DNA of 64,000 bases, taken from the NCBI GenBank assembly GCA_902778455.1, contig CACYXR010000014.1, positions 1-64,000 of the forward strand, given 5' to 3'. The notes under the pieces are model-generated. The model saw nothing but the letters and a program-made list of their open reading frames with translations, was not told the origin of the DNA and ran no database searches. Source of the stretch: an uncultured Selenomonadaceae bacterium (GTDB taxonomy: Bacteria > Bacillota > Negativicutes > Selenomonadales > Selenomonadaceae). The translations under genes and the position numbers were made by a program. This document shows positions 39,848 to 41,727 of the stretch, piece after piece. Every line of letters begins with the position of its first letter. Positions within the stretch are counted from its first letter, which is position 1.

Positions 39848-40738
39848 ATGACCAAAATCCCAATGGAGCTTCGGCAGCTTGAGTATTTCTGCATGGCCGC
39901 GAAGCTGCGGAACTTGACCCGCGCCGCCGCCGAGCTGAAAGTCTCCCAGCCGAACATCACCGTCGCCATCCAGAAGCTGGAATCGAGCCTCGGACTGCGG
40001 CTCTTTGACCGCAGCCAAAAGCAGTTCCTGCTGACAGCGGAAGGCGAAATCTTCCTGCGCCGCGTTGAGGACGCCCTCGACATCCTGCACGACGCTATGC
40101 GCGAGCTCGACGATTACAAGAACCTCGAAAAGGGCAACATCCGCATCGGCATTCCGCCGATGATCGGCGCCTATCTTTTCCCGCGCATTTGCTCGGACTT
40201 CCAGAAAATCTATCCCAATCTCTCCATCTGCCTTTACGAGGAAGGCTCGATGGCCATCCGGGAAAACCTCGAAGCCGGGGAACTGGACTTCGGCATCATC
40301 ATCCTGTCGGACATCCCCGCCGCGCTGAACACCTTCCCGATGTGCAGCTCCGAGCTGGTCACCTGCGTACCGAAGGACTCGCCGCTGGCCGCACGTTCAT
40401 CGCTGCGTCTTTCGGACTTCGACGGGCAAAACCTGATTGTCATGAAGCACGGCTCCTTCATCCGCCGTATGCTCTCCGACAAATTCGCCACCGAAGGCAT
40501 CTCGCCGAATATCGTCCTCGAATCGAACCAGATTGAAATCATCAAGCACTTGGTCGAAAACGGCATCGGCCTCGCGTGCCTGCTGGACTGTGTAACCCAG
40601 GACGCGCAAAATTTCCGCGTCCTGCCCTTCGAGCCCTCAAAGCGCTTCGACATCGGCCTGGCGTGGAAAAAGAGCCGCTACCTGTCAAAAGCCGCTTCCG
40701 CCTTCATGGATTTCTGCAAGGAAGCGTTGATCGAATAA
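39848..40738 (+). CDS. LysR family transcriptional regulator
   Basis: A 296-residue regulator. The N-terminal winged helix is typical: Glu-Leu-Arg-Gln-Leu-Glu-Tyr-Phe near 7-14, Ala-Ala-Ala-Glu-Leu-Lys-Val-Ser-Gln-Pro, and Gly-Leu-Arg-Leu-Phe-Asp-Arg. A periplasmic-binding-like effector domain covers about 90-290. The closest functional type seems to be the CynR/CidR-like group, but the effector is unknown. It is divergent from motA across a 287-base AT-rich gap with several TATAAT-like hexamers near 39768, and ends in a strong terminator. The target genes cannot be named. Confidence 0.93.
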   Translation: MTKIPMELRQLEYFCMAAKLRNLTRAAAELKVSQPNITVAIQKLESSLGLRLFDRSQKQFLLTAEGEIFLRRVEDALDILHDAMRELDDYKNLEKGNIRIGIPPMIGAYLFPRICSDFQKIYPNLSICLYEEGSMAIRENLEAGELDFGIIILSDIPAALNTFPMCSSELVTCVPKDSPLAARSSLRLSDFDGQNLIVMKHGSFIRRMLSDKFATEGISPNIVLESNQIEIIKHLVENGIGLACLLDCVTQDAQNFRVLPFEPSKRFDIGLAWKKSRYLSKAASAFMDFCKEALIE

Positions 40739-40752
40739 GATACAAAAAGCGC

Positions 40753-40790
40753 AACTTCCGCATGCCGCAACGGCGTGCGGAAGTTTTTCA
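40753..40790 (+). terminator. Terminator of the LysR gene
   Basis: AACTTCCGCA/TGCGGAAGTT stem with inner GCCG-CAA-CGGC, then TTTTTCATTTT. Confidence 0.87.
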
Positions 40791-40814
40791 TTTTATTTTC
40801 AGGTTATGTTCCAT

Positions 40815-40830
40815 TGTTTCACGTGAAACA
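40815..40830. promoter_or_regulatory. parS site 1 (ParB-binding)
   Basis: TGTTTCACGTGAAACA, a 16-bp perfect palindrome identical to the Bacillus/Firmicute parS consensus. It lies in the non-coding gap between the LysR terminator and pth. Confidence 0.9.
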
Positions 40831-40946
40831 TTTTTTCGGAAATTATTTTCCTCTTGCAGCTAATTTTTATATAACCAGGAACCTGAAATAGTTGTGATTT
40901 CAAGGGTTTATATAAATTGTGCAAAAATTTTCAGGTTATGTTCGAA

Positions 40947-40962
40947 TGTTTCACGTGAAACA
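40947..40962. promoter_or_regulatory. parS site 2 (ParB-binding)
   Basis: A second exact TGTTTCACGTGAAACA, 132 bases from the first. Both are preceded by TTTTCAGGTTATGTT, so the surrounding unit was duplicated. Confidence 0.9.
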
Positions 40963-41046: not shown

Positions 41047-41727
41047 ATGAAAATGTTTGCCGGGCTCGGGAATCCGGGCGCGGAGTATGCGGCTACACGG
41101 CACAATGTCGGGTTCATGCTGGCGGACGCGTTGGCGGCGCGATGGGACGCGGCGGGCTGGCGCACGAAGCAGGACGCGCTTGTAGCGGAGGCGCGGCTCG
41201 GCGCGGAAAAGATCTTGCTGGTGAAGCCGCTTACCTATATGAATGAAAGCGGGCGCGCCATCGGCCCTTTGCTTTCCTGGTACAAGCTCGCCCCTGAGGA
41301 CCTGATCGTCGCCCACGACGATATGGATTTGCCCGTCGGCATGATACGGCTGCGGAAGAAAGGAAGCGCGGGCGGACACAACGGCATGAAGTCGATCCTC
41401 TACCATGTGCAGGACGAGAATTTTCCCCGCGTGCGCATCGGCGTCGGCCATCCCGTCCACGGGCGCGACCAGGTCATCCGCCACGTGCTTTCGCCGTTTT
41501 CCGCCGAGGACGCGCAAAAAATCCGCGAGGCGATAGAATATCTTTTGCCCGCTGTCGAATGTATCATAGCAGAGGGCATCGACCTCGCGATGAACAAATA
41601 CAACCCGAAAAAGGAAAAAACGCCGAAGCCGCCGAAAAACGCCGGGGAACAGAACGAAGCAAACGCCTCCGGCGAACCGGACGGAAACGCGAGGCAAACG
41701 GAAAGGTCTGGGAATTCCGATGGCTAA
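41047..41727 (+). CDS. pth: Peptidyl-tRNA hydrolase
   Basis: A 226-residue enzyme that recycles peptidyl-tRNA. It has Gly-Leu-Gly-Asn-Pro-Gly near 6-11, Thr-Arg-His-Asn-Val-Gly-Phe with the catalytic His near 20, His-Asp-Asp-Met-Asp-Leu-Pro near 92-98, and Gly-Ser-Ala-Gly-Gly-His-Asn-Gly near 108. The last 40 residues are a Lys/Pro/Glu/Asn-rich extension beyond the normal end. The ATG at 41047 follows AGGAGG, and an extended -10 (TG-G-TACAAT, 41011-41019) lies upstream. It overlaps the radical SAM gene by eight bases. Confidence 0.96.
   Translation: MKMFAGLGNPGAEYAATRHNVGFMLADALAARWDAAGWRTKQDALVAEARLGAEKILLVKPLTYMNESGRAIGPLLSWYKLAPEDLIVAHDDMDLPVGMIRLRKKGSAGGHNGMKSILYHVQDENFPRVRIGVGHPVHGRDQVIRHVLSPFSAEDAQKIREAIEYLLPAVECIIAEGIDLAMNKYNPKKEKTPKPPKNAGEQNEANASGEPDGNARQTERSGNSDG

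Follow-up and report, generated by a model that had tools for sequence, protein, structure and literature searches.

Two parS copies in the LysR-pth gap

Do two parS sites in a single intergenic gap mark an origin-proximal centromere, or do they belong to something else? This question is raised by the 64,000-nucleotide stretch analyzed here (the window), which lies on contig C14 of a Schwartzia-like Selenomonadaceae genome (G000; 2,604,903 bp in 34 contigs). The exact 16-mer TGTTTCACGTGAAACA was found at 40815-40830 and again at 40947-40962, with a start-to-start distance of 132 bp, and a scan of the window with up to three mismatches returned no match beyond these two. Since shuffled sequences are expected to give only 0.20 matches in the window even when three mismatches are allowed, the two exact copies are not due to chance. 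Both positions carry the complete 16-bp parS palindrome. An initial annotation of this DNA had placed two exact 16-mers, 132 bp apart, between the terminator of a LysR-family gene and pth, and the sequence scan, the 15-bp stem of the terminator and the TIGR00447 assignment of pth bore this out. The upstream sequence that it described as common to both sites is also real, with TTTTCAGGTTATGTTC present at 40796-40811 and 40928-40943. The features of the locus are as follows.

39848-40738, plus strand: LysR-family regulator gene, upstream of the element and outside it (context only)
40752-40785, plus strand: Rho-independent terminator of the LysR-family gene, with a 15-bp stem; its T-run runs on into the TTTCAT with which the module opens
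40786-40838, plus strand: left parS module, with TTTCAT at 40786-40791, TTTTCA at 40796-40801, TGTTC at 40807-40811, parS at 40815-40830 and TTTTTTCG at 40831-40838
40815-40830, no strand assigned: parS copy 1, exact TGTTTCACGTGAAACA
40879-40909, plus strand: internal hairpin of the long two-parS element, with a stem that partly covaries between copies
40928-40962, plus strand: right parS module, with TTTTCA at 40928-40933, TGTTC at 40939-40943 and parS copy 2
40947-40962, no strand assigned: parS copy 2, exact TGTTTCACGTGAAACA
41047-41727, plus strand: pth, aminoacyl-tRNA hydrolase, downstream (context only; TIGR00447 over cut-off)

The columns of the left module are those conserved across about 47 copies and between species. 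In the long elements, the hairpin between the two parS copies (40879-40909 in the window) has a conserved, GCTTGTG-like loop on its partly covarying stem.

A dispersed, genus-specific parS module

A scan of the whole genome for the 16-mer returned 52 exact copies (56 when up to two mismatches were allowed), which fall into about 35 loci (sites merged at 5 kb) on 22 of the 34 contigs. The initial annotation had proposed a centromere role, which it held to be unlikely if the 16-mer were scattered around the chromosome; the copies are scattered, and the centromere part of its reading falls. A BLAST search with the element from the pth locus recovered the same sequence at the scattered parS places. 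A single dispersed module that is specific to the genus, TTTCAT-N4-TTTTCAKGTTATGTTC-NNN-parS, accounts for most parS copies; its full alignment in fixed orientation reads TTTCAT-N4-TTTTCA-K-GTTATGTTC-NNN-parS-TTTTTTCG. The module occurs as a single unit of about 55 bp, as a long form of ~180 bp in which two modules are spaced by 131-133 bp (at the pth locus and seven or so others), and as a head-to-head pair 56-57 bp apart (C1:187112, C3:18034, and C24:72791). The internal hairpin of the long form has 11 consensus pairs, five of which are changed on both sides in some copy. The suggestion that the parS unit had been duplicated locally at pth was abandoned in favor of a copy of the genome-wide two-parS element, since the shared 5' flank belongs to a module found at many places in the genome and the layout of two copies at 131-133 bp recurs at other loci. 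On the sequence evidence, we consider it likely that the window pair is one member of a dispersed family of short, genus-specific repeats with the extended parS TTTTCAKGTTATGTTC-NNN-TGTTTCACGTGAAACA as their core, and that these repeats act as ParB-loading modules rather than as a centromere. Within the module, TTTTCA, TGTTC and the left half of parS are spaced about one helical turn from one another, and TTTTCA and TGTTC may be ParB half-sites.

The module sites are intergenic and often lie near promoters, as they might if the palindrome were the operator of another regulator that matches parS by coincidence. However, all 16 bases are those of universal parS, the flanking genes are functionally unrelated, and the origin-proximal parS of the genus and family has the identical 16-bp sequence, making an operator highly improbable. 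Adjacency to a terminator was also considered as a rule and rejected: 6 of 34 modules passed a simple test for it, and at least two of these score on the internal hairpin of the long element.

Overall, the distribution of parS over the contigs did not depart significantly from evenness (chi-square p=0.51; empty length p=0.10). However, C2 (258,984 bp) and C4 (204,300 bp), which rank second and third in length, are without parS (P about 0.001, post hoc). The few markers that these contigs carry, ATP synthase among them, map to 0.13-0.49 of the ori-ter distance in genome G045.

Position relative to the origin and the terminus

Sites of this kind are described as lying almost exclusively near ori (PMC5815017), and the initial annotation had placed the window near oriC. 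The genes for DnaA and DnaN are on another contig (C31:8.9-10.6 kb), which has its own parS pair at 23.9 kb, 13 kb from dnaA. This pair and those on contig C27 are of a different build, parS-NNN-GAACA-NN-TGTTC-NNN-parS, with the two sites 34 bp apart, and pairs of this type are retained near metH-type genes in the congeners G009 and G007. Because of this different build and retention, the C27 and C31 pairs are likely the ancestral, origin-proximal sites. Within the ancestral pairs at C9:145486 and C27:1553-1602 lie GAACATATGTTC-like palindromes similar to the SOS (LexA) box of Gram-positive bacteria; this likeness may be the mere symmetry of two facing TGTTC motifs.

In three complete genomes from another genus of the family, pth and the radical-SAM gene downstream of it lie at 0.88-0.97 of the ori-to-ter distance, and the skew over the window has a constant sign except in its first 4 kb. 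The sites are thus not clustered near dnaA/oriC, and the placement of the window near oriC could not be upheld, given the separate dnaA contig with its differently built pairs, the terminus-side position of pth in the three complete relatives, and the spread of parS over 22 of 34 contigs. An ordinary origin-proximal centromere, with the window near oriC and its sites two of a small parS cluster, would fit the exact parS sequence, the presence of ParAB and the usual position of parS near the origin (PMC7333895). It has very little to recommend it against dozens of copies on most contigs, a dnaA on a different contig with parS pairs of its own, a pth that is terminus-side in complete relatives, and a window skew of constant sign beyond the first 4 kb.

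The genes flanking the modules lie in the terminus (outer) half of complete relatives at 14 of 17 loci (KS p=0.013), a test that leans on synteny between genera in which adjacent G000 genes map to different ori distances. Because gene order is so poorly conserved, a terminus bias of the dispersed modules is only suggestive. On contig C9 (143.6-150 kb), parAB adjoins gyrA, apart from the contig of dnaA and dnaN (C31:8.9 kb), and mnmA, which is terminus-side in relatives, is 55 kb from parAB. These two observations indicate that the genus is heavily rearranged.

One ParB of parS specificity

The genome encodes one ParB-family protein over the TIGR00180 cut-off, and no second ParB or Noc paralogue was found in a protein-family search of the genome. 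The parB gene follows and overlaps parA, with a parS just upstream of parA (C9:145486), and ScpA is also encoded. The CTP motifs of ParB, GERRLRA and ENVQRENLN, are intact, and its N-terminus reads GLGGQGLGALI. In an alignment to Caulobacter ParB, it has R, F, R and G at the four positions that discriminate ParB from Noc, including the equivalents of R173 and G201 (Caulobacter numbering). The absence of parB would have spoken against the first reading of the locus, but one ParB and a ParA are present. The description of the sites as perfect parS stands as well, with ParA, a canonical ParB with parS-type residues, and ScpA all encoded in the same genome. Because perfect sites coincide with this machinery, ParB nucleation at the window pair is likely, and recruitment of SMC there is possible.

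About 35 loci scattered over the chromosome recall the Noc sites of B. subtilis (about 70), and the lack of a second paralogue would suit a system in which the single ParB, or a co-factor that reads TTTTCA and TGTTC, brings about nucleoid occlusion or membrane tethering through scattered sites. However, the Noc residues Q, K, K and R are absent from this ParB, which has parS-type residues and a ParB-type N-terminus and scores below the cut-off of the Noc model. The sites are parS rather than the Noc-binding sequence, and if anything they are enriched toward the terminus (on weak synteny), where Noc sites are absent. We therefore regard a Noc-like system as unlikely.

Distribution among genomes

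Among named genome contigs, the exact extended motif was found only in rumen-type Selenomonadaceae/Selenomonadales metagenome-assembled genomes, several of them named Schwartzia. With one mismatch allowed, 9 of the 11 congeneric genomes (G000 included) had the motif, against 0 of 20 relatives from other genera. TGTTC as a family-wide extension of parS was dropped, as it was not seen in other genera.

The number of exact parS sites is also out of the ordinary. Nearly all of 107 genomes of the family have 0-7; G000 has 52, two congeners have 20 and 31, another congener has 4, and G085, from another genus of the family (g27), has 40. All of 398 genomes of the phylum have at most 8, except G000 (52) and two genomes of genus g211 (69 and 30). 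The high end of published counts is 20-23 sites, near the origin (PMC7333895). In G085 (L121-L135), the 40 sites form tandem arrays of 2-9 at several loci, with spacers of 19-60 bp that are unrelated in sequence. In G352, a g211 genome from another family, parS lies inside a dispersed repeat of its own, TTTGGTTAATAAC-parS ... GTTTGTTGCCTGC. In the other g211 genome, G485, the sites are clustered on one contig, with scattered singles elsewhere and unrelated flanks. Because of these differences in layout, repeat and flanks, the expansions in this genus, in G085 and in g211 are apparently independent, as judged from their sequences.

Turnover of positions and constraint on the core

Of the loci at which both flanking genes lie side by side, 10 of 11 lack the module in G009, which belongs to the same genus, and 4 of 5 lack it in G007. 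The clearest case is the corrinoid-protein locus, with a gap of 30 bp in G009, 76 bp and one parS in G007, and 204 bp and two parS in G000. In G009 and G007, LysR and pth are on separate contigs and without the element. Closer species have many module positions in common with G000, among them the LysR-module-pth arrangement (L095). Since the flanking genes are kept while the module is missing in a species of the same genus, copies have been gained or lost recently. In L077, from the close relative G002, a gene resembling that at 18.1 kb of contig C3 lies between the LysR-parS element and pth.

Presence and absence at orthologous loci is the behavior of a mobile, MITE-like repeat; neither terminal inverted repeats nor a target-site duplication was evident in comparisons of filled and empty sites, in which the ends of the element are not fixed exactly. 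An IS200/IS605 or REP element with parS as its hairpins was considered, as TTTCAT precedes the copies that come after terminators and the long form has a palindrome on either side. This candidate was rejected, since the Y1 transposase model (PF01797) found no match in G000 while it did match control genomes.

To what extent is the module preserved where it has been retained? In 25 cross-species pairs of retained copies, chosen as the best-matching pairs, mismatches numbered 1/150 in TTTTCA, which was unconditioned, and 0/125 in TGTTC and 2/400 in parS, for which the counts test the G000 side only, as copies in relatives were picked with an exact GTTATGTTC-NNN-parS. In the same pairs, the NNN spacer differed at 12/75 positions, column -13 at 7/25, and columns beyond the module at about 45%. 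A gapped alignment of retained copies gave 1.4% for parS and 1.0% for TTTTCA plus TGTTC, against 16% for the rest of the module and 25% for the flanks. Near-invariance of these three elements beside flanks that diverge by about 40% implies, at the level of sequence, that TTTTCA, TGTTC and parS are under selection, as expected of a bound site.

These data also bear on the possibility that the module is a selfish or neutral MITE/REP-like repeat that contains parS and is bound by ParB with no chromosomal role, its palindrome being kept through a young master copy or ParB-aided spread. Its presence and absence at orthologous loci, copies beside terminators, long and short forms at the same site, the covarying internal hairpin, and an unrelated genus that carries parS in a different repeat of its own would all be in line with this. 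In contrast, retained sites have diverged interleaved columns and flanks around unchanged TTTTCA, TGTTC and parS, unlike a decaying neutral repeat, and G000 is without a transposase of the type searched for (Y1). A selfish repeat is therefore a possibility to be taken seriously, though not the reading we favor.

A model for the proposed ParB-loading module

If the module loads ParB, the single ParB would bind each exact parS, close as a CTP-dependent clamp and slide into the neighboring few kilobases, with the in-phase, half-site-like TTTTCA and TGTTC strengthening or orienting its loading. ParB at the modules could recruit SMC-ScpAB, giving dozens of small ParB domains per chromosome instead of one, and the dispersed modules may also titrate ParB. 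ParA-driven segregation would probably still be led by the separate C27 and C31 parS pairs near dnaA. The module probably multiplied as a mobile or duplicating repeat, and its copies then persisted because binding of ParB was useful or tolerated.

In Caulobacter, additional parS sites outside the native cluster are harmful or disfavored, and the same holds for ter-proximal sites in B. subtilis and P. aeruginosa (PMC5815017). Given this known cost, either the genus tolerates dispersed sites or the sites are weaker in vivo than their sequence suggests. In Caulobacter, extra parS is tolerated near the native parS, weakly near ter, and not mid-arm (PMC5815017), a pattern that is compatible with the terminus bias suggested here but is not proof of it. 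More speculatively, a centromere site may have turned into a dispersed, selectively maintained repeat. One ParB (with SMC) acting at dozens of places might then form a natural whole-chromosome loading system, a living intermediate of a kind that could precede a Noc-like, dispersed-site paralogue; we put this forward as a tentative idea that may well prove wrong.

Comparison with known systems

Like REP and MITE repeats, the module is short, non-coding, intergenic and hairpin-containing, and it is present or absent at orthologous sites. In contrast to them, it has a constrained centromere sequence at its core, neither terminal inverted repeats nor a target duplication could be recognized, and G000 has no Y1 transposase. 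The parS arrays of G085 and of G352 and G485 resemble it in number, with 30-69 exact parS per genome; however, those of G085 are tandem with unrelated spacers, and those of G352 lie in a repeat of their own (TTTGGTTAATAAC-parS). Binding to half-parS sites in Pseudomonas aeruginosa likewise disperses ParB contacts along the genome (PMC10419367), but these are isolated heptamers, whereas here full palindromes are accompanied by two in-phase, half-site-like motifs. The Noc-binding sites of Bacillus, of which B. subtilis has about 70 with none in the terminus region (PMC4331003), share with the module the use of tens of scattered 16-bp palindromes for a ParB-family CTPase (PMC4331003). They differ in that here the sequence is parS, the residues are of ParB type, the search returned no separate Noc, and the sites do not seem to avoid the terminus.

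Chromosomal parS clusters have the identical 16-bp consensus, encoded ParB, ParA and ScpA, and several sites per chromosome in common with this system. B. subtilis has eight parS over ~0.75 Mb, and Streptomyces coelicolor and Listeria innocua have about 20-23 sites (PMC8357415, PMC7333895). Unlike these clusters, which are near the origin, the 52 exact sites described here lie in about 35 loci, form part of a repeat that carries a 5' extension specific to the genus, and turn over between species. A review has raised the reasons for the variation in parS number and for the clustering of sites as open questions (PMC7333895). Models of ParB-parS and SMC action assume one origin-proximal parS zone, and engineered extra sites lead to SMC collisions or to defects in segregation and fitness. 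A rumen genus with about 35 dispersed parS loci, in which the site is under selection while its positions turn over, is a natural breach of this one-zone rule, and it could serve as a direct test of how SMC traffic, ParA-driven segregation and the clustering of sites proceed on a chromosome with loading points throughout. The dispersed extended-parS repeat is real and unusual, and it contrasts with the single origin cluster of almost all bacteria.
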